NCBI GenBank assembly: GCA_019456305.1
Contig: VRUD01000030.1
Coordinates: forward strand, 1 to 46,162
Direction of reading: 5' to 3'
DNA: 46,162 nucleotides
Source of the DNA: Cytophagales bacterium
GTDB lineage: Bacteria; Bacteroidota; Bacteroidia; Cytophagales; VRUD01
The notes under the pieces are model-generated. The model worked only from the letters and a program-made list of their open reading frames with translations. It was not told the origin of the DNA and did no database searches. The position numbers were made by a program, and so were the translations under genes. Positions within the stretch are counted from its first letter, which is position 1, and the number at the start of each line of letters is the position of its first letter. Shown one piece after another: positions 31,570 through 43,716 of the stretch.

Positions 31570-32559
31570 TTATTCATATTTCAAAAGATACTTCGGATTA
31601 ACAACCTTAAATGATACCCTGCCATTTTTATCATATTTTTCTTCCAGGGGTCTGATCACAATGCCTTCACGCATGGTTTCGGGGTTAATTAATGAATTGC
31701 CAATAGAAATTTCCACCAGCTTATTAATATCAACAAACAATACAAAATCCTTATTAATTAAGGGAACGGTCTCTAATCCTAAATTATTGATAGTATCATA
31801 AAACTGCTGAAAGTCTGAATATTTGTGGTTGTCAATGTCGTAGAGATTAAAGACATAGACCGTTTGTCCTCTTAACTTTAGTGTATTCTTTTGTATTCCT
31901 TCACCTACCATTTCTCCCTGTACGGCATAGTTGCCGTTAAGTGAGCGCAGCTTGTTTTCAATATCCAGGTCTTTTGCTACTTTCCATAGCGTATTTTCAT
32001 CGGTTTCCAGCAGCTCTAAATTCCGGCTGCATACGCCAAACGTTCCCTCATTGATATAATATGTTACACTGCTGCCATCTAATTTTTCTGTAATATAGCA
32101 CTTTTCGCCTTTGAAGCTGTCGAGCGTGTCCTGTACAACCTGTACCCTGGGTTCATCTGTTTTTGGAATGAATGATGGGATCTTTCCTTTTGCTACTCCC
32201 TGCAGATGGGCAGGTATGGGCGGTTCATATTTTATTATGCCAAGAATTTCAGTGACGTCCATATCCTCTCTTATTTCAGTATCAGTAGGTAGTATTGATA
32301 ACGGAAAGCATATACCCTGGGATATTTGTCCACGGAGCTTGACGGTTTTTATTCGCATTTTCCGTGGCTTGAGAAATTCAAATTCCGACCGCTCGGGTAA
32401 TACACTGTCAATTTCGCAATATACACACAGATCGCCTGGTTTAAATTCACCCTTTTTTACTACCAACTGCCAGCCCAAAACGGTTGCTTTTTCAATAGCA
32501 TCAGCGTCTTGTATTGGTTCAGTGGCAGAAATTTTTTGAATAGATGCTAATTTTCTCAT
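31570..32559 (-). CDS. RNA ligase (ATP), DRB0094/Rnl5-like
   Basis: A 329-residue covalent nucleotidyltransferase. The N-terminal OB-like domain is followed by the ligase core: EKLDGSSVTYY with the adenylated lysine (motif I), SRNLELLET (motif Ia-like), YAVQGEMVGEG, VYVFNLYDID (motif III), MREGIVIRP (motif IV) and SFKVVNPKYL (motif V). The family is named for the Deinococcus radiodurans ligase and seals nicks in RNA, often joining 3'-OH and 5'-phosphate ends. It is convergent with kynU. There is a long GC-poor 3' end but no visible insert. Confidence 0.88.
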   Translation of the reverse strand: MRKLASIQKISATEPIQDADAIEKATVLGWQLVVKKGEFKPGDLCVYCEIDSVLPERSEFEFLKPRKMRIKTVKLRGQISQGICFPLSILPTDTEIREDMDVTEILGIIKYEPPIPAHLQGVAKGKIPSFIPKTDEPRVQVVQDTLDSFKGEKCYITEKLDGSSVTYYINEGTFGVCSRNLELLETDENTLWKVAKDLDIENKLRSLNGNYAVQGEMVGEGIQKNTLKLRGQTVYVFNLYDIDNHKYSDFQQFYDTINNLGLETVPLINKDFVLFVDINKLVEISIGNSLINPETMREGIVIRPLEEKYDKNGRVSFKVVNPKYLLKYE

Positions 32560-34540: not shown

Positions 34541-34670
34541 GATAACGATTTGGATAAAGGCAGTGGGGTTTAGGTTACGAAACTGTCTCCCGTTACGAGA
34601 TTTTCAATGGGAATTGAGAGTCTCTTTTCGAGACGGTCAGCCCCATTGCCTTTATGTTTTGTTGGGCATA
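34541..34670 (-). other. attC-like recombination site (site C)
   Basis: On the minus strand it reads TATGCCCAAC at one edge and GTTATCATATG at the other. Between them ATAAAGGCAGTGGGG (34554-34568) pairs with CCCCATTGCCTTTAT (34641-34655), with a further inner hairpin (ACTGTCTC/GAGACGGT). It ends the MORN-protein unit. The TATGCCCAAC arm is complementary, with one mismatch, to that unit's 5' edge GTTGTGCATA at 36323-36332. Confidence 0.75.
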
Positions 34671-34677
34671 GTGCTTT

Positions 34678-36315
34678 TCATTGTTTAATTATTTCTTTGA
34701 TGCTAACCATACCTTCCTCTTTTTCCTTGTAAATGATGTGGTGCTTCACTACCGTGTCGTCATCTTTTAATTCAAGGTCCCAATGGTCAGGCATATAATC
34801 TCCTGTCTCTGCTTCAATGAAGCCTTTATACAAGATAGAACCATCCTTATTCCAGCAAGCCAGTTCAGTTCCTGTTGCTTTCCATATACAGGCTTTCATC
34901 ATCTGTCCATTCTTCCACCAATAGCTTTCAGATAATAATCCCTCCTTACTCCTCACTTTTTTACTTCGTAAACTCCCGCTGGAGTACCATTCCCTGGTTG
35001 CATCCTTACCATGTTCCTTGCTTTTTATCCCATTGGGATGCCATTCAGTATAAGGTTTTCCTTTAACGTTACGCAGCTTCATTTGGCCGTTCTTGTACCA
35101 TTGGAATTGTCCTGCGTCTGATCTTTCCCAGAGCTTTTTACCTGAGGGATACCATTCTGTTTCGATGCCATTGCCATGCTCTTTTATCTTTTGTCCGGTT
35201 TTATCAAAGGTGGTATATACATACGTGTTCTGTTGATAATCATTTACACTTTGAATTTCTCCGGTTTCGTAGTAGTGAATCTCTTTCAGTACCTTCTTTT
35301 TGCCTTTGACATAAGCAACCGATCTTGGACCTCCTGAAGAGAAATAAGTCCTTAGTGTGTCCAACACATTGGCCAGGGAATCCAGCCTGTGCTGTTCCGT
35401 TGCTTTGCGGGTGCTGTCTGCACGTTGCTTTTCGGCCAGCAAGTTTGCTTTTTGCATTTCGTATGCCAGCATCATGGAGTCTGCGTCAATTTGCAGGCGA
35501 GCAGGGGTGGGAGTAGCGGCAAGATGAATTACCAGGTCATTTAAGCAAGTCCACCTCATTTTGCGCGAACTGATCTGCTCTATGGTGCAATCAAACAAAG
35601 GAATATTCTCAAGGATAAAAAGCAGTTTACCTTCCACCTGCCATGCACCCACTATTATGCGGGCAGTATCGCTGGCCGGCTGCATAAGCACCACTCCATT
35701 TTTCTTAAACAGGTATTTGCCTCCCTTATATATGCTGTTCCAATCAATAGGCCCGCCCATTTCCTCCGGATCAATTTCAGGCTCCGACAATGCTGCATAT
35801 TCAATCTCCCAAAGGGTATCGCACAGCATATCCTCTGGGCTCATTAGCGCCTCTTTTAGTAATACTTCTGCTTCTTTCGGGGGTAGATAACGCCCATCAT
35901 ATTTTACCAACTTCCCTGCACTCAGCTTTTCATAGGTAGTATAATCAGGCAATTCAGTTCCCTCTTTGTCCCAGTAGCGCCAGCCATCCATTTTCACACT
36001 GGTGCGATATATTCTTATTAACGGGTTTTTAGGAGGTGGGTATATTCTCGTTTGTATTTTGTCCCGGCCAATCCGTACTTTTAGTGCTATCCTGTAGTCG
36101 CCTGATGCCCCTTTTTTTCCGTTCTCATAGTAGTCTGTTCTTTTCCCTTTTTTCAGGAATGGCCTTCCTTTTTTGTATTTGTAATTAGCCAGCGACATCA
36201 TAGAGCCGTCATTATATCTCGTCAGATGGTTGAAGCTTTCTCCATTCACAACCGTGTCTTGCTGTGCTGCGGTTAGTAAGGGAAACAGTAATAATATGGC
36301 TGTCAGTTCTCTCAT
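34678..36315 (-). CDS. Secreted MORN-2 repeat protein (YwqK-like) with lipocalin-like middle
   Basis: A 545-residue exported protein (signal peptide RELTAILLLFPLLTAA). The N-terminal and C-terminal parts carry MORN-2/YwqK repeats: YENGKKGASGDY, YYETGEIQSVNDYQQ, TEWYPSGKKLWERS, WYKNGQMKLRNVKGKPYTEWHPNGIKSKEHG. The middle (LCDTLWEIEYAAL... GAWQVEGKLLFILENIPLFDCTIEQISS) is lipocalin-like. These proteins are often found near toxins or effectors and the function is unclear. The gene fills one unit of the putative cassette array (about 34547-36331) by itself. Confidence 0.7.
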   Translation of the reverse strand: MRELTAILLLFPLLTAAQQDTVVNGESFNHLTRYNDGSMMSLANYKYKKGRPFLKKGKRTDYYENGKKGASGDYRIALKVRIGRDKIQTRIYPPPKNPLIRIYRTSVKMDGWRYWDKEGTELPDYTTYEKLSAGKLVKYDGRYLPPKEAEVLLKEALMSPEDMLCDTLWEIEYAALSEPEIDPEEMGGPIDWNSIYKGGKYLFKKNGVVLMQPASDTARIIVGAWQVEGKLLFILENIPLFDCTIEQISSRKMRWTCLNDLVIHLAATPTPARLQIDADSMMLAYEMQKANLLAEKQRADSTRKATEQHRLDSLANVLDTLRTYFSSGGPRSVAYVKGKKKVLKEIHYYETGEIQSVNDYQQNTYVYTTFDKTGQKIKEHGNGIETEWYPSGKKLWERSDAGQFQWYKNGQMKLRNVKGKPYTEWHPNGIKSKEHGKDATREWYSSGSLRSKKVRSKEGLLSESYWWKNGQMMKACIWKATGTELACWNKDGSILYKGFIEAETGDYMPDHWDLELKDDDTVVKHHIIYKEKEEGMVSIKEIIKQ

Positions 36316-36322
36316 TTTGCAT

Positions 36323-36395
36323 TATGCACAACGTTTAGTATATGAAGCGTAGCATCCCGAAGGATGCTATGATTTCATATACATTGTTACCATGC
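36323..36395 (-). other. attC-like recombination site (site B)
   Basis: The minus strand has GCATGGTAAC at its 5' edge and GTTGTGCATA at its 3' edge. TATATGAA/TTCATATA and GTAGCATCC/GGATGCTA form a nested stem of a 70-bp hairpin. It lies between the EcoRI-like gene and the MORN gene. GCATGGTAAC is exactly complementary to GTTACCATGC, the 5' edge of the restriction-modification unit at site A. Confidence 0.8.
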
Positions 36396-36418
36396 GTTTC
36401 TTTTTAATTTTTAACTCC

Positions 36419-37228
36419 TTATGTCGTTATGAAATTCATTACTCTTAATGAAGTCTTAGCAATATCAATCATAATTGGAAGCATTTCTTCAGTTGTTGTC
36501 CACGGAGTGGCTTTAGTATAAATTGAAACAGCTTGCAGCATTATTTTTTGACCGTCTATAGAAATAAAAATATTTTCACATCTATTTTGATTAATGGGCA
36601 AACTATAATTTGCGGCAGTTAATCTATCAATTCTGTTTAAAGATCCAACATCGTGTCTCAATTCTACCTCTCTTCCATCAGGTCTTTTTACTGTTATAGA
36701 TTCAGTGAGAAAATTCGAACCTTGTAAAAAAAGGATATAAGGAAAGTGTTTCTCATTCATCATAATGTTCCTTATTTCATTGATATTTTTGTGAGAACGT
36801 TCAATAGCATTTCCTGCAACCATTATGTCCTGATCTTTATTTTTCCCCACCAATATACCTTCCTGTATATTGTCTATATCCTTGCCTTGATGCTTCGCTT
36901 CGGAGACCAAGATAATTCTCCAATTCTCATCTTTATCTTTAACTTCTATTATTCCACCATCAGGCTTTATAGCTGCTTTTTCTACAAATATTGTTACGCC
37001 TAACCGAGAATCAGTTTCATTAAGTTTTTCGTTTATTTCTTTTTTTGCAATAAACTCCCTATAACGGAATTCTAAGTCAGTAAATTCTTTTTTTAAAGAT
37101 TCAAATGCACTTTTTGAAATATCTTTTACGGACAAATCATGGTCTTGTGCTGATTTTCCAAAAATCCCTTTAGGTCCTTCAATTTTCTCTTGTTGCTTAC
37201 TTAATCTATCTGTTTGTTTCTTTTTCAA
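36419..37228 (-). CDS. EcoRI/RsrI-family type II restriction endonuclease
   Basis: A 269-residue homologue of R.EcoRI, recognised along its length. The PD...ExK site is intact: KPDGGI with Asp90, then SEAKHQGKD with Glu110 and Lys112, one residue offset from EcoRI D91, E111, K113. The recognition segment AGNAIERSHKNINE keeps the EcoRI N141 and R145 equivalents (N140, R144), and NRIDRLTAANY keeps R200/R203 equivalents. This predicts cutting at GAATTC. The gene overlaps the methylase gene by 4 bases (ATGA). The pair occupies one putative integron cassette. Confidence 0.95.
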   Translation of the reverse strand: MKKKQTDRLSKQQEKIEGPKGIFGKSAQDHDLSVKDISKSAFESLKKEFTDLEFRYREFIAKKEINEKLNETDSRLGVTIFVEKAAIKPDGGIIEVKDKDENWRIILVSEAKHQGKDIDNIQEGILVGKNKDQDIMVAGNAIERSHKNINEIRNIMMNEKHFPYILFLQGSNFLTESITVKRPDGREVELRHDVGSLNRIDRLTAANYSLPINQNRCENIFISIDGQKIMLQAVSIYTKATPWTTTEEMLPIMIDIAKTSLRVMNFITT

Positions 37229-38193
37229 TGTGATTCTTTAACTTCTAATGATTCTTGTTTTGTCAATCTTTTGATTGCTTGATCAACAGTTAAATTCTTT
37301 TCTATTGAATATGGCTTGATAAACATATTTTCATTAATTTGAGAAAGATGTAAATCTAAATATTCATATAGCTTAGAATCAGTATCTACAAGAATAGAGT
37401 TTCTCGCTTCTTCAATTGCAACACGACCTGTTGTTCCTGAACCAGCAAAGAAATCTAAGACAGTTGATCCTGGATATGACAAACTACGAATGAATCTACG
37501 AATAATCTCAACCGGCTTTTGAGTAGGGTGCCCAACTCGCTCCTTAGAATTTCCGTTTAATCTATTGATTTCCCATACGTTTGTTGGGTTTTTCCCTTTT
37601 TCGATAGTTTCTGGATTCAATCTTTTATCTTTTCTATAAAGCTCTTTTGTCTTTTCATCATATGGGATTCTTACAGAATCTAATTCAAAATAGTACTTCT
37701 TAGTTTTGGATAACCAAATGGCTTCTTCATGTCTATTTGCAAAAAAACGATGAGCACTCATACCGTTTTTATAATACCAAATTACCAAATTGATAAAGCG
37801 TAATTTGGTAGAATGTCTTGTGTAATGTAATATTTCAAGTAAATCACCTTTCTTTAGGTCTTGAAATTGGAATCCACCAAAAATTACACAATTTCCTGAA
37901 TCAGATAATATCCTATAAATCTGATCCAACCAATCTTTTGCCCATTCCAGATAGTTTTCGTAAGTATCCCAATAATCTAAATCCAGATTATATGGAGGAT
38001 CGATTAATATAAGTTGAATCGAAGAGTCAGGAATTTGCCTTAGCACTTCAACTGCATCCTTAATGAAAATAGTATGCATAGTGCTTTCCACTTCTTGACG
38101 TGTTACATCTATTGTAGAACTGTGTCGCACCCCATTTTTCCTTTGTCGGTTGATCGCGATATGACCTTTATTAAAGTGAGATTTATTTGGCAT
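37225..38193 (-). CDS. DNA methyltransferase of the M.RsrI type
   Basis: A 322-residue beta-class N6-adenine methyltransferase. The DPPYNL motif (IV) is at residues 65-70 and the SAM-binding DFFAGSGTTGRVAIEEARNSI motif (I) lies near the C-terminus, giving the beta order. NGMSAHRFFANRHEE and NPTNVWEINRLNGNSKERVGHPTQKP match M.RsrI closely. M.RsrI protects GAATTC, so this enzyme should protect the host from the partner endonuclease. The endonuclease gene follows with a 4-base overlap; the methylase is translated first. Confidence 0.95.
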   Translation of the reverse strand: MPNKSHFNKGHIAINRQRKNGVRHSSTIDVTRQEVESTMHTIFIKDAVEVLRQIPDSSIQLILIDPPYNLDLDYWDTYENYLEWAKDWLDQIYRILSDSGNCVIFGGFQFQDLKKGDLLEILHYTRHSTKLRFINLVIWYYKNGMSAHRFFANRHEEAIWLSKTKKYYFELDSVRIPYDEKTKELYRKDKRLNPETIEKGKNPTNVWEINRLNGNSKERVGHPTQKPVEIIRRFIRSLSYPGSTVLDFFAGSGTTGRVAIEEARNSILVDTDSKLYEYLDLHLSQINENMFIKPYSIEKNLTVDQAIKRLTKQESLEVKESH

Positions 38194-38245
38194 CTTTTGA
38201 ATTTTGGCTAAGGTCTAACATTTTTTTGATTTATTATTTAATAAT

Positions 38246-38305
38246 GCATGGTAACGTGTTTGGCTAAACTGCGTTTCAATGCAGTTTAGGTATTGTTGGG
38301 CTTAG
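38246..38305 (-). other. attC-like recombination site (site A)
   Basis: On the minus strand CTAAGCCCAAC marks one edge and GTTACCATGC the other. The stem is GCAGTTTAG/CTAAACTGC, 9 bp, perfect, with an 8-base loop. The AAGCCCAAC edge is complementary to the 5' edge (GTTGGGCTTA, site D) of the preceding unit. Length is about 60 bp, a usual size for attC. Confidence 0.82.
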
Positions 38306-38308
38306 TTC

Positions 38309-39106
38309 TTAATTAGTTGTAAAATTCAATGTTCTTGCACAGGCAGGGTTAGGGCACAAAACGGACGTGTAACCTGTCAACTTCCTTTTATCAATTTCTA
38401 TTTTTGTTGTGCAAAATGGACAATTCCCAGAAACCAAATTAGGATTTCCTCCAAAAATCAAGGTGCCTCCAGCGCCAAAACCAACACTATTGCCTTGTAC
38501 AGAAATATCACCTTGCGTTGTAATTCCATCCATTCCAACACTTCCTTCTGAACTAGAGAATTTTGTCTTGTCAATGAAGTTCTTACTTCCGTCTTTGGCG
38601 TGCAGATGAGTCTTCTTAGCTTTTATCTCAGTATTCTCGACAACATTTGTGCTATTGTTCTTTGCTATTATAGCTGCGAAATCAGCTTCAACAAACGAAT
38701 TCAGTACTTCTTGATAGCTCCAATCCTCAGTTTCCATTATCCATTCAGTTCCATCGTCTGTGTTCAAGTCTTCGATAATTTCAGCAACTAATTTTTCTAC
38801 TTGCTCATTTAAAGCTTTATTGTAGTTAATGGTTCCTCCAATCTCTTGTAGTTTTTCAATTTCATCGTCTATTGAAGCAATTTTATCGTTTGTAGAATTA
38901 ATCTCAGTCCAGATATCATCTAGTCTTATTTTGAGGGCTTCATTGGACGAGATTCGGTCAATTATCTGATTGACTTGCTGAAATCCAGGTATTGGTATAA
39001 AGCTTAACCAAAAGGACGTATAACTCACATCATCTTGCAAGTGTTCATTTTTAAGGTGAATTTTAACTGTCTGAAGTAATTCCTTTGCTTTTTCTGCTAT
39101 GTTCAT
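38309..39106 (-). CDS. Coiled-coil / zinc-ribbon protein of unknown function
   Basis: A 265-residue soluble protein. Residues 1-130 are helical and coiled-coil (IWTEINSTNDKIASIDDEIEKLQEIGGTINYNKALNEQVEKLVAEI). A loop of charged residues then links to a beta-rich segment (GITTQGDISVQGNSVGFGAGGTLIFGG) and a C-terminal zinc ribbon CPFCTTKI...CPNPACARTL (four cysteines). I do not recognise a family. It is the sole gene of its unit in the putative cassette array and lies next to the ParDE pair. Confidence 0.6.
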   Translation of the reverse strand: MNIAEKAKELLQTVKIHLKNEHLQDDVSYTSFWLSFIPIPGFQQVNQIIDRISSNEALKIRLDDIWTEINSTNDKIASIDDEIEKLQEIGGTINYNKALNEQVEKLVAEIIEDLNTDDGTEWIMETEDWSYQEVLNSFVEADFAAIIAKNNSTNVVENTEIKAKKTHLHAKDGSKNFIDKTKFSSSEGSVGMDGITTQGDISVQGNSVGFGAGGTLIFGGNPNLVSGNCPFCTTKIEIDKRKLTGYTSVLCPNPACARTLNFTTN

Positions 39107-39132: not shown

Positions 39133-39264
39133 GCCCAACGGTTTGAATATGGTGCGTTTGGCATTTCAAAGCTCACATCTTTCAGTTTATTACTATGTTT
39201 ATTCATTGCTATCATTTTCCATTTTAGCACTATCTGCCAAATGCACTATATTTTTTGTTATGTG
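39133..39264 (-). other. attC-like recombination site (site D)
   Basis: On the minus strand it runs from CACATAAC at 39264-39257 to GTTGGGCTTAATTAG ending near 39125. The outer stem pairs GTGC(A)TTTGGCA with TGCCAAACGCAC (11 of 12), with a central region of about 60 bases that is only partly paired. The 132-bp length resembles the long attC sites of Vibrio arrays. It begins 3 bases after the parE stop codon. Confidence 0.7.
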
Positions 39265-39267
39265 GGG

Positions 39268-39567
39268 TTATTCTGTTATTCTATGTTTTAAATCCATTTG
39301 CTCGTGCAATATTCTTATTATTTCAATTTCATTCTTATTTAACTTTCTGTAAAAAATAATATGTCGCCCAGTTCTATAACCAAATAATTTGTCTGCAATT
39401 CCGTCATAATTTTTACCAATATTTGGCTTTTCTGCAATTCCCTTACAGTTATCGAGTAACATTTGATAGTATTTGTCAGCTTGTTGTTCAGACCAGTTAT
39501 CAAAGGTATAATTCCAAATTTTGGATAAATCTTCTACGGCTTTATTAGTCAAAAAGTAATTAGCCAT
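39268..39567 (-). CDS. parE: ParE-family toxin
   Basis: A 99-residue RelE/ParE-fold protein: YFLTNKAVEDLSKIWNYTFDNWSEQQADKYYQML, then NIGKNYDGIADKLFGYRTGRHIIFYRKLNKNEIEIIRILHEQMDLKHRI. ParE toxins poison DNA gyrase. It overlaps parD by 8 bases, with antitoxin first. Its stop codon is 3 bases from attC-like site D, typical of cassette-borne toxin-antitoxin genes. Confidence 0.93.
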   Translation of the reverse strand: MANYFLTNKAVEDLSKIWNYTFDNWSEQQADKYYQMLLDNCKGIAEKPNIGKNYDGIADKLFGYRTGRHIIFYRKLNKNEIEIIRILHEQMDLKHRITE

Positions 39568-39811
39568 TCTGATCTTTTTTTGCTTTTAATTCTTTCAGAT
39601 GTGTTTTTGGATTGAAGTCAAGAGCTAATCCGCTTTCAACACCTTCTTGAATTGCATTTTTTAAAGCAATAATCTTATTTTCTTCTTCTTCCAAAAGCCG
39701 CAGTCCTGCTCGTATTACTTCACTTGCATTTTTATATCTTCCAGTAATCAAGCTACTCTGAACAAACTTATCAAAGTAATTCCCTAATGATATTGACGTA
39801 TTTCTATTCAT
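39560..39811 (-). CDS. parD: ParD-family antitoxin
   Basis: An 83-residue ribbon-helix-helix antitoxin: NTSISLGNYFDKFVQSSLITGRYKNASEVIRAGLRLLEEEE, the classic ParD N-terminus, followed by a polar tail that binds ParE. It is co-transcribed with parE. The upstream 39,812-39,978 spacer holds imperfect GAATTACAACT-type tandem repeats and no recognised cassette edge. Confidence 0.93.
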   Translation of the reverse strand: MNRNTSISLGNYFDKFVQSSLITGRYKNASEVIRAGLRLLEEEENKIIALKNAIQEGVESGLALDFNPKTHLKELKAKKDQNG

Positions 39812-39978
39812 TTTAAATATTTTTTTTTATTTTTCAAAGATACCAAATATTGGTACAATAGTCAAATCTTTTCCTTTTTTTTATCACTAACATTGATCAT
39901 TACGGCAACCGTATGGCAACTGAATTGCAAGGAGTTACAACTGAGTTACAACTGAATTACAACTGAATTACTATTGAA

Positions 39979-42900
39979 TTATACGTCATAATTCAAATTA
40001 GGCGAAAGCCATTTCTCTGTTTCTTTCAGGTCCATTTCCTTTCGTTTGGCATAGTCTTCAATCTGGTCTTTACCGATCTTTCCCAGGCCAAAGTATTTGG
40101 ATTGAGGATGGGCAAAATAGATGCCGCATACCGAAGCAGCAGGGTACATTGCAAGGTTCTCGGTTAAGGTAATACCTGTGTTTTTTTCTACTTCTAAAAG
40201 ATCAAATAATGTTCTTTTTTCAGTATGATCGGGACAGGCGGGATAGCCTGGCGCCGGACGAATACCGGCATATTTTTCATGGATCAGTTCTTCACTGGTA
40301 AAATTTTCATCTTTAGCATAACCCCAGAACTCTTTACGTACACGCTGGTGCAGCAATTCAGTAAATGCTTCAGCTAACCTGTCTGCCAGCGCTTTTATCA
40401 TAATGCTGCTGTAATCATCAAGGTCTGCTTCAAATTTCTTAATCATCTTTTCTATTTCAATGCCAGTTGTAACGGCAAAGAAGCCGATGTAATCCCCGCC
40501 ACTATTCCTTGCTATAAAATCTGCTAAAGCAAGGTTAGGCACTCCGGGAGCTTTTTGTCCTTGCTGCCTTAATGTATGAATTACGGCTTTAACCTTTTCT
40601 CTGCTTTCATCTTCATAGACAGTGATGTCATCATCACTCGTAGCATTGGCCGGATAAATACCTATTGAGGCATTTGCGGTAAGAAGGCGTTTATCAATCA
40701 CTTCCTGCAATAATTTTAGAGCATCATTAAGTAGTTTTTGTGCTTCTTTACCCATTTTAGGGTCATCAAGCAATTTCGGAAATTTACCCTTTAGCTCCCA
40801 GGCCTGGAAAAAGGGCGTCCAGTCAATGAAATTGCTTATTTCTTTGAGTGAATAATTTACAAAAAATTTATTTCCAATAAATGATGGTTTGGTAATTTTT
40901 GTGGTTTTCCAGTCAATATTAAATTTATTAGCCCGCGCCTTTGTAATGCTCAGAAGTTGCTTATCCTTTTGGCGGGATAAATGATCGATCCGGAGTTTTT
41001 CATATTCTGTTTTTATATCGTTGCAAAATACTGCTTTGTTCTTTTCATTCACAAGTTTACTGGCAACTCCGACACTGATGGAAGCGTTTAAAACGTGAAT
41101 AACAGAACCATTGTAGTTAGGTTCAATTTTTACAGCAGTATGTATGCGTGAAGTAGTAGCTCCACCAATTAGTAACGGAAGATCGAAGTTCAACCGCTTC
41201 ATTTCTTTGGCAACGTGCACCATTTCATCTAATGAAGGCGTAATTAAGCCGCTCAAACCAATGATATCTACATCATTCTCTTTTGCTGCTTGCAGAATTT
41301 TATCACTGGCAACCATCACCCCCAGGTCAATGATCTCATAATTATTACACCCTAATACAACTCCTACGATGTTTTTCCCTATATCATGTACGTCACCTTT
41401 TACTGTTGCCATTAATATTTTACCTGCGGCTTTGGGCTTGCCGCCATCTTGCTTTTCCTCTTCAATAAATGGTGTCAGGTGAGCTACTCCCTTTTTCATC
41501 ACCCTTGCACTTTTCACAACCTGGGGAAGGAACATTTTACCCGAACCAAAAAGATCGCCCACCACATTCATACCGTCCATCAAAGGCCCTTCTATAACGT
41601 GCAGGGGCCTGTCATATTTTTTTCTCGCCTCCTCAACATCTTCTACAATATAATCTGTAATACCTTCTACCAGGGCATGTTTGAGACGTTCCTCAACATT
41701 TTCTTTTCTCCAGCGCTCGTCCTTTACCTTTACAATACCATTGGATACTACATTTGCTGCGTATTCAACCAATTTCTCTGTAGCATTTTCACGTTTATTG
41801 AACAGCACATCTTCAACCTTACCAAGCAAATCTTTTGGAATGTTTTCATATACCTCTATCATTCCTGCATTCACTATTCCCATATCCATACCAGCCTGTA
41901 TCCCATGATAGAGAAATGCAGAATGCATTGCTTCCCGTACCGGGTTATTTCCCCGAAAGGAAAAAGATACATTGCTTACGCCCCCACTAACCATTGCGTA
42001 TGGTAAATTCTTTTTTATCCACCTGGCTGCTTCAAAATAATCTACTGCATTTTTATTGTGTTCGGGAAGACCGGTTGCAACCGGAAAGACATTAGGATCA
42101 AAAATGATGTCTTCAGGTGGAAAATTTAATTCTCCGGTAAGTATTTTATACGCCCGTTCACATATTTCTATCCTGCGTTGGATTGTATCTGCCTGGCCTT
42201 CTTCATCAAAAGCCATCACCACAACTGCTGCACCGTATTGCCTGATCTTTCTGGCATATTCTATAAACTTTTCTTTCCCTTCTTTGAGACTTATAGAGTT
42301 AACTATTGATTTTCCCTGCACACATTTAAGCCCGGCTTCAATCACCGACCATTTTGAAGAATCTACCATAATAGGGATCCTGGCAATATCAGGTTCTGAG
42401 GCAATAAGATTCAGAAATGTGGTCATTTCTGCTTCAGAATCAAGTAAACCTTCGTCCATATTTACATCAAGGATCTGGGCTCCGCCTTCAACCTGGTCTT
42501 TCGCTATTGCTATTGCTTTTTCATATTCCTTGGCTTTGATCAGCTTTGAAAATTTTTTTGAGCCGGTTATATTGGTTCTTTCACCAATGTTTATAAAGTT
42601 GCTTTCTGAAAAGATCGTTAACGGCTCTAAGCCGCTGTAATTTGGTTTTTTCTCTTTTTCCGGAACTTTCCTTGGGGAATATTTTTCTGCTAATACCGCT
42701 ATTTGTTTAATATGTTCAGGAGTAGTACCGCAACAGCCCCCAACAATATTTACAAAGCCACTTTTTAAGTAATCTTCAATAACAGATGCCATGCGTTCCG
42801 GAGTTTCATCGTACTCACCAAATTCATTAGGAAGCCCTGCATTGGGATGGACACTTACAAAAAATGGCGCTGTATCGGATAATGTTTCAAGGTAGGGCCG

Positions 42901-43716
42901 TAATTGTTCCGCTCCAAGAGCACAATTTAAACCAATACTCAACATAGCTGTATGTGATACTGAATACAGGAATGCTTTAACGGTTTGACCGGACAAAGTA
43001 CGCCCGCTTGCGTCTGTGATGGTCCCTGAAACCATGACTGGAATACGAATTGAGGATTTCGGATTTTGGATTTCGGATTTCGAGTTTCGAATTTCGAGTT
43101 TCGAGTTTTGAATTTCAAGCTCATTAAATTGCGATTCAATAGCAAACAGCGCCGCTTTACAGTTCAGTGTATCAAAAACGGTTTCTACGAATAAGAAATC
43201 TACGCCACCGTCAATTAAACCCCGTACCTGTTCTGAATAAGTTCCAACCAGATCATCAAAGGTGGTAGCCCGGTATTCCGGCCGGTTTACGTCAGGAGAA
43301 AGAGAGGCGGTTTTATTGGTCGGGCCGATGGAACCGGCAACGAATCTGGGTTTGTCAGGATTCTTATTAGTGAATTCATCAGCCACTTTTCGTGCTATTT
43401 TCGCAGATGCCACATTGAGCTCATACACAATGTCTTCCATCTGGTAATCAGCCATTGAAATTGAAGTAGAATTGAATGTATTGGTTTCAATAATATCAGC
43501 GCCCACTTGCAAAAAAGCAGCATGAATATCTTCAATTATTTTGGGTTGGGTAATGGAAAGCAGGTCATTATTGCCCTTCAGATCACTGGAAAAATCTGCA
43601 AAGCGCTTCCCCCTGAAGTCTTCCTCTTCTAATTTGTGTGCTTGTATCATTGTGCCCATTGCACCGTCTAATACAAGTATTCTTTCTTTTAATATGTTAG
43701 TGATTTTGTTTGTCAT
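39979..43716 (-). CDS. metH: Cobalamin-dependent methionine synthase
   Basis: MetH transfers a methyl group from methyltetrahydrofolate to homocysteine. All four modules are present in 1245 residues: homocysteine domain (zinc cysteines GLNCALG and [11 protein letters not shown]), pterin domain ([16 protein letters not shown]), B12 domain ([22 protein letters not shown] with the DxHxxG ligand) and the SAM-activation domain ([24 protein letters not shown]). An insert about residues 195-225 ([17 protein letters not shown]), with a 7-residue period, is encoded by CGAAATC-type heptamers (43043-43120). A SAM-I riboswitch lies upstream, so it is repressed when SAM is plentiful. Confidence 0.96.

Follow-up and report, generated by a model that had tools for sequence, protein, structure and literature searches.

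A two-gene restriction-modification system of the EcoRI family as a probable cassette of an integron-like array in a Cytophagales bacterium

The restriction-modification genes and their partners

The window analysed here, a whole stretch of 46,162 nucleotides from a Cytophagales bacterium, contains on its minus strand a methylase gene followed by an EcoRI-family endonuclease gene, and these two genes lie within a series of predicted gene cassettes. The features of the region are given below in the order in which the minus strand reads them; R1 denotes a covariance model of attC-like sites that is described in the next section.

39979–43716, minus: metH, the chromosomal gene bordering the array, assigned by its family to methionine synthase; the C-terminal third is similar to proteins in 32 of 39 relatives
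39835–39866, minus: candidate promoter before parDE, read from the sequence as TTTG, 20 nt and TATCTTTG, and resembling the Bacteroidota consensus
39560–39811, minus: ParD antitoxin cassette gene (PF03693, 7e-24)
39268–39567, minus: ParE toxin cassette gene (PF05016, 2e-17)
39137–39259, minus: attC-like hairpin of the ParDE cassette, 123 nt (R1 rank 1, 70.5 bits)
38309–39106, minus: zinc-ribbon-like cassette gene with C-terminal CxxC pairs, recognised by its ORF and the edges GTTGGGCTTA/TAAGCCCAAC
38253–38297, minus: attC-like hairpin of the zinc-ribbon cassette, 45 nt (R1 rank 4, 17.1 bits)
36332–38254, minus: predicted restriction-modification (RM) gene cassette, with complementary edges, abutting neighbours and a hairpin at its 3' end, delimited by the G^TT rule
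38246–38255, minus: start edge of the RM cassette, GTTACCATGC, the exact complement of its end edge
37225–38193, minus: M.RsrI-type adenine methylase, 322 aa (PF01555, 7e-57), with DPPY before FAGSG, beta class
36419–37228, minus: EcoRI-family endonuclease, 269 aa, with a TTG start within the methylase stop (PF02963, 6e-118)
36386–36395, minus: end edge of the RM cassette, GCATGGTAAC, the exact complement of its start edge
36330–36388, minus: attC-like hairpin of the RM cassette, 59 nt (R1 rank 3, 20.3 bits)
34678–36315, minus: MORN-repeat-like gene of the last recognised cassette, recognised by its ORF and the edges GTTGTGCATAATGC/GCACTATGCCCAAC, which match at 12 of 14 positions
34544–34663, minus: attC-like hairpin of the MORN-repeat cassette, 120 nt (R1 rank 2, 27.7 bits)

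The EcoRI Pfam domain spans the endonuclease (E=6e-118, positions 2-250 of 257), EcoRI structures were its nearest solved match in a structure-sequence search (E=2.7e-94), and it is 57% identical to EcoRI from an E. coli plasmid. The initial annotation of this DNA had claimed that all catalytic and recognition residues of EcoRI are kept, and the alignments bear this out: D90, E110 and K112 of the window protein correspond to the catalytic D91, E111 and K113 of EcoRI, and N140, R144, R199 and R202 to the recognition residues N141, R145, R200 and R203, all seven being invariant first among five EcoRI-family proteins and later among the best 80 of 290 relatives. The same annotation had the two genes overlapping by ATGA, which has to be corrected, as the overlap is the 4-nt TTGA, with the TTG of the endonuclease inside the TGA stop of the methylase. 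Inspection of the ORF found no ATG or GTG start in the endonuclease frame, and because only AGA, ATC and ACA codons remain in frame before an upstream TAA, TTG is taken as the start codon.

At the positions equivalent to A138, E192 and Y193 of EcoRI, the window endonuclease carries V, R and H, and the residues are similar across its clade. These three positions are tied to relaxed specificity, substitutions at A138 and E192 relaxing that of EcoRI; at the A138 position, the PDB sequence 2oxv has T where 1ckq has A. The three differences offer a lead on specificity and weigh against the reading of the locus favoured below.

The partner methylase had been described as M.RsrI-type rather than M.EcoRI-type, and this description holds: M.RsrI (structure 1eg2) is its best structural match (E=1.5e-108, residues 1-291), no significant similarity to M.EcoRI was detected (E=0.25), and the motif order, DPPY before FAGSG, was read directly from the sequence. 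The protein is 72% identical to a methylase encoded beside an EcoRI-family endonuclease on an Acinetobacter plasmid. A scan of approximately 85,000 species genomes yielded 290 relatives of EcoRI, and among the best 80 of these, which were retained, EcoRI-type endonucleases are partnered by M.EcoRI-type or M.RsrI-type methylases in either gene order. Because both families serve as partners, the contrast between the two methylase types at the window is, on this comparison, real but ordinary. The 18 closest relatives of the endonuclease (70-79% identical) mostly have an M.EcoRI-type partner, with M.RsrI-type methylases in three of them; the methylase has therefore been swapped within one endonuclease clade, and, as far as these pairings can be read, methylase partners of EcoRI-type endonucleases have been exchanged repeatedly.

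The pairing of two GAATTC-methylase families with one endonuclease clade argues that this clade has retained GAATTC specificity. The window methylase would protect GAATTC and the endonuclease would cleave it when unmodified. GAATTC sites, of which the initial annotation had noted several, number nine in the window, against 18.6 expected, and one of them lies within the endonuclease gene. In 365 kb of the source genome the sequence occurs at 0.58 of expectation and ranks 9th among 64 palindromes, so its depletion is not specific evidence of restriction. We also considered GAATTC avoidance as a sign of long residence of the system and rejected it, several palindromes being more depleted in the same 365 kb.

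The cassette array and its hairpins

Along the minus strand the cassettes follow each other in the order ParDE, zinc-ribbon, RM and MORN-repeat, with attC-like hairpins in between. Three of the four units start GTTxxx and end in their own complement; for the ParDE cassette, no start edge was recognised in the window. The RM unit begins with GTTACCATGC and ends with GCATGGTAAC, which is followed by the hairpin and then by the GTT of the next unit, and the neighbouring units have edge matches of their own, 10/10 for zinc-ribbon and 12/14 for MORN-repeat, head to tail. Edges that pair up inside each unit, are not shared between units and meet those of the next unit head to tail are read as those of integron cassettes and not as transposon ends. 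When the window edges are set against the canonical integron core sites, RYYYAAC (R'') and GTTRRRY (R'), GTT/AAC is invariant, and RRRY fits GTTGGGC and does not fit GTTACCA or GTTGTGC.

The RM pair had been presented from the outset as a compact unit with complementary edges that is carried as one cassette. The 10-nt edges (38255-38246 and 36395-36386) are indeed exact complements, the pair belongs to a run of four cassettes that each have an attC-like hairpin, and the limits proposed for it, 36333-38254, differ by at most one base from those that G^TT cutting would give (38254-36332). Searches of the source genome with the whole RM cassette DNA and with the pattern of its own hairpin returned this copy only. 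The nearest available genomes belong to the same taxonomic order as the organism of the window and are no closer, and no empty site was seen. The zinc-ribbon-like and MORN-repeat-like proteins gave weak matches to Beta_helix and MORN_2, respectively, both below the Pfam cut-off. Short tandem repeats of AATTCAGTTGTAA type occupy 39920-39980, between metH and the array, and elsewhere in the window, at 31570-32559, lies a gene for a phage-like RNA ligase-family protein with a PHA02142 OB-fold domain.

An earlier detector based on AACAA...CGTT and strict stems missed one of the four window sites and, outside the window, found one site in a Bacteroidales locus (L054); it was therefore replaced by a linkage test on edges plus stem, in which self-matching edges, a stem and abutment on the next cassette are required. 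Applied to the 475 kb of 34 sequences, this linkage detector made 25 strand-wise detections, whereas one Markov-shuffled copy yielded 0 links. Since the units are palindromic, it also flags the opposite strand, and the strand was set by the asymmetric spacer and the gene direction.

R1 was built from the core of 22 sites, one of which came from another contig of the source genome (L209), the others from relatives and none from the window. With filters off, its four best window matches are the four predicted sites, the next best match scoring 12.6 bits; the RM and zinc-ribbon hairpins are short (59 and 45 nt, against approximately 121) and score weakly when taken alone. Rebuilt with their own edges, the 22 sites consist of an outer 4-bp stem, a 2-nt mismatch, a 9-bp stem ending in AAC/GTT and a bulge of 1 nt on one side versus 5 nt on the other, followed inward by a stem of approximately 10 bp, an inner 6-bp stem and a terminal region. 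Compensatory changes occur in 26 of 29 stem pairs of the 22 aligned sites; as the sites had been selected on 9-bp edges and one stem, only the features outside that selection, namely a length near 121 nt, the outer stem (three of four pairs) and the inner stem, are largely independent. Rfam yielded no matching family. In the source genome R1 found 38 sites, and it found none in 12 genomes that were reached via EcoRI-relative loci and are labelled as other phyla.

Recombinases and arrays in the source genome and in other Bacteroidota

No integrase gene was matched on the contig of the window, where no attI-like site was seen either, and the source genome (159 contigs, 98% complete) contains no intact array-linked recombinase, an assembly in that state being one from which an intact copy could be missing. 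It does encode two ordinary-length Xer-like genes (33% identical) and short recombinase fragments on four contigs (C6, C9, C42 and C24), those on C6 and C24 having attC-like sites nearby. On contig C24 (L209, 9333-13139), a second cassette array lies beside a decayed recombinase fragment. Because only such decayed remnants are present, the RM array is best described, from what the assembly contains, as an integrase-less cluster. Under the CALIN criterion, at least two attC within 4 kb with no integrase nearby, the four sites in 4.7 kb qualify, as judged with R1.

In Flavobacterium luteum (L060, 402-7200), a recombinase is followed by an attI-like palindrome and then by at least four cassettes, and the head of the array lies a few hundred bases downstream of this 347-aa tyrosine recombinase. 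The third recognised cassette, GTTAGGTGCAAGCGTT...AACGCCAGCACCTAAC, is an RM cassette with an EcoRI-type endonuclease and an M.EcoRI-type methylase. The recombinase reaches 199 bits against a cut-off of 265 on the integron-integrase model and 218 bits against a cut-off of 220 on the XerA/integron-integrase model, and it is close to NCBIfam NF040815. It aligns with Vibrio IntI (2a3v) on both sides of a stretch in which it has 20 residues where IntI has 62, and against IntI1 it shows gaps across the ALPDALERKYP...RRHH region. Between the conserved KDR and LRH motifs lie 60-61 residues in nearly every member that could be measured, and 65 in one, compared with approximately 102 in IntI1, a value counted by eye on the alignment. 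Judged by these alignments, the insertion specific to IntI, of roughly 40 residues, is absent from the array-linked recombinase. The recombinase tree has poor resolution, with IntI1 on a long branch; it was used for rough grouping only, and one row (L196_1, a wrong-frame ORF) was left out.

In seven fetched loci, the array starts 64-103 bp past the recombinase stop, on the same strand. The gap between recombinase and array (L186-L205) usually contains a palindrome with a conserved ATATAAACnAGTT tail, where the first cassette begins, and this arrangement is a candidate attI-like site. All 74 R1 sites in 25 recombinase loci lie on the strand of the recombinase. The Chryseobacterium plasmid NZ_CP041688.1 (L218, 11989-22122) carries this same recombinase with five attC-like sites, and an IS110 element and a group II intron break up the stretch.

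With presence defined as a match with E below 1e-60, the recombinase was detected in 50 of the 198 Bacteroidota genomes sampled, and genomes with an array-linked recombinase also carry other Xer-like genes. Sites of the attC-like type occur in 48 of these 50 genomes versus 67 of the other 148 (Fisher p=1.1e-11), which leaves two recombinase-positive genomes with no R1 site and 67 genomes with sites and no strong recombinase match. Because some recombinases score weaker than the 1e-60 threshold and site numbers were capped at 17 per genome, this co-occurrence is an association and not a proof.

Of 65 RM loci, 19 are surrounded by matching GTT/AAC edges, while mispairing of left and right flanks gave a mean of 4, and EcoRI-type RM pairs are, by this measure, recurrent cassette cargo. 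A Bacteroidales locus (L054, 1271-4536) contains a larger cassette-like unit, in which an EcoRI-type RM and apparent further genes lie between matching edges. Edge matches also surround RM loci of other phyla (L068, L069 and L095), in whose genomes R1 finds no site, and these may represent other integron types or chance.

Interpretation of the locus and its relation to known systems

We consider it highly probable that the two-gene system, with its EcoRI-family endonuclease and M.RsrI-type methylase, is one cassette of an integrase-less, four-cassette integron-like array of Bacteroidota. The gene identities, residues, edges, hairpins, covariation, recombinase adjacency and co-occurrence are observed in the sequence, and we infer the rest of the scheme, that is, specificity, methylation, excision, integration and the identity of the acting recombinase. 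Once joined in an excised circle, the two edges of the RM cassette would lengthen the stem of the hairpin found at the 3' end of the cassette. Insertion and excision would be the work of a tyrosine recombinase that recognises the single strand in its folded form and cuts it at G^TT. Among related Bacteroidota, the acting recombinase is most probably the protein encoded directly upstream of the arrays, which would be an IntI/Xer-like enzyme without the IntI-specific insertion, and the window array, at present apparently without an integrase of its own, would possibly be mobilised in trans.

Expression would follow from the same arrangement. The promoter-like sequence ahead of parDE, the first recognised cassette, might read through the array; the methylase, translated first, would protect GAATTC, and the endonuclease, probably translationally coupled to it via the TTGA overlap, should cut unmodified GAATTC, providing defence and probably post-segregational selection for the cassette. 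Loss of the cassette would expose unmethylated GAATTC, and its retention would thereby be favoured.

The main alternative is a canonical CALIN, in which standard cassettes were inserted by a canonical IntI acting in trans and the neighbouring Bacteroidota recombinase is irrelevant. Clusters without an integrase are frequent and broader in range than IntI (PMC8618304), and the principle of attC hairpins with G^TT-type borders is the same, but TIGR02249 gave no match over its cut-off in the source genome or in any of 14 genomes that carry EcoRI-type RM loci, the recombinase that precedes the arrays on their own strand and co-occurs with the sites is of the kind without the IntI insertion, and the sites have an outer stem and a stereotyped length of approximately 121 nt. 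We therefore regard a canonical CALIN as unlikely. That the RM genes sit in a transposon-like or MITE-like unit bounded by terminal inverted repeats is very improbable: the 10-bp inverted termini would fit, but the termini of the neighbours differ and each matches only itself, no transposase lies inside, the units abut via hairpins and the hairpin stands at the 3' end only. Transposon-type inverted repeats were rejected as an explanation on the ground that neighbouring units end in different, self-matching sequences. We find it scarcely credible that this is an RM locus of the ordinary sort in a hypervariable part of the chromosome, with edges that are coincidental or terminator-like hairpins, since, although variable regions often hold RM genes and two of the window hairpins are weak alone, there are three abutting edge pairs, the independent model ranks the four sites at its top and the shuffled control gave 0 linked pairs.

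The cassette reading places the window system among known ones. With EcoRI (E. coli) and RsrI (Rhodobacter sphaeroides) it shares the catalytic and recognition residues and an M.RsrI-type methylase; it differs from them in combining an EcoRI-family endonuclease with an M.RsrI-type methylase, methylase first and with a TTGA overlap, in its location in a chromosomal cassette and not on a plasmid, and in V, R and H at A138, E192 and Y193.

Tandem same-strand cassettes, a 3'-end attC-like hairpin and a GTT border are common to the array, to the class 1 IntI1 and Vibrio IntIA integrons and to CALIN, and relatives also have a tyrosine recombinase and a candidate attI-like site, as in those integrons. 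In contrast to the IntI1 and IntIA integrons, the recombinase of the relatives is without the IntI-specific insertion and is encoded upstream of the cassettes, on their strand, the edges are complementary over 9-14 bases plus an outer stem, attC is approximately 121 nt long in array-linked loci, and the attI-like site in relatives is usually a palindrome with a ATATAAACnAGTT tail. Of the features by which a canonical integron is recognised, tandem same-orientation cassettes with attC hairpins were found and the IntI-specific additional domain was not. The array-linked recombinase is nearest to XerA among solved structures and near NCBIfam NF040815, and it differs from XerA, XerC and XerD in heading cassette arrays and in an extra N-terminal region of approximately 70 residues.

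Sedentary chromosomal integrons with defence cassettes likewise carry RM and toxin-antitoxin genes, which are known integron cargo (PMC8618304); here the host belongs to the Bacteroidota. This phylum is among those listed with integrons (PMC8618304, PMC9668308), and IntegronFinder 2.0 reports few complete integrons in it. In the open-access literature covered by PMC, we found no description of a Bacteroidota system with such a recombinase. Both the kind of RM system and the principle of the cassette are thus known ones; the platform would seem to be a variant that is undescribed in the open literature searched. We lean, by a modest degree, towards the broader view that it represents a widespread, largely unrecognised Bacteroidota integron class, characterised by a recombinase that has no IntI-specific domain, an attI-like site in the form of a palindrome, hairpins of approximately 121 nt and self-matching edges, which would spread whole EcoRI-type RM systems among other cargo, on chromosomes and at least one plasmid.

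Carriage of the RM system in one cassette would mean that a single recombination event brings its own protection, followed by selection for retention, and placement in an integron-like array would explain how the pair can move when it has neither a transposon nor a plasmid to itself. Should the array-linked recombinase prove to be the active integrase, the domain thought to define integron integrases would be unneeded for cassette arrays, and standard integron searches would overlook a system that roughly a quarter to one half of the Bacteroidota genomes sampled contain.
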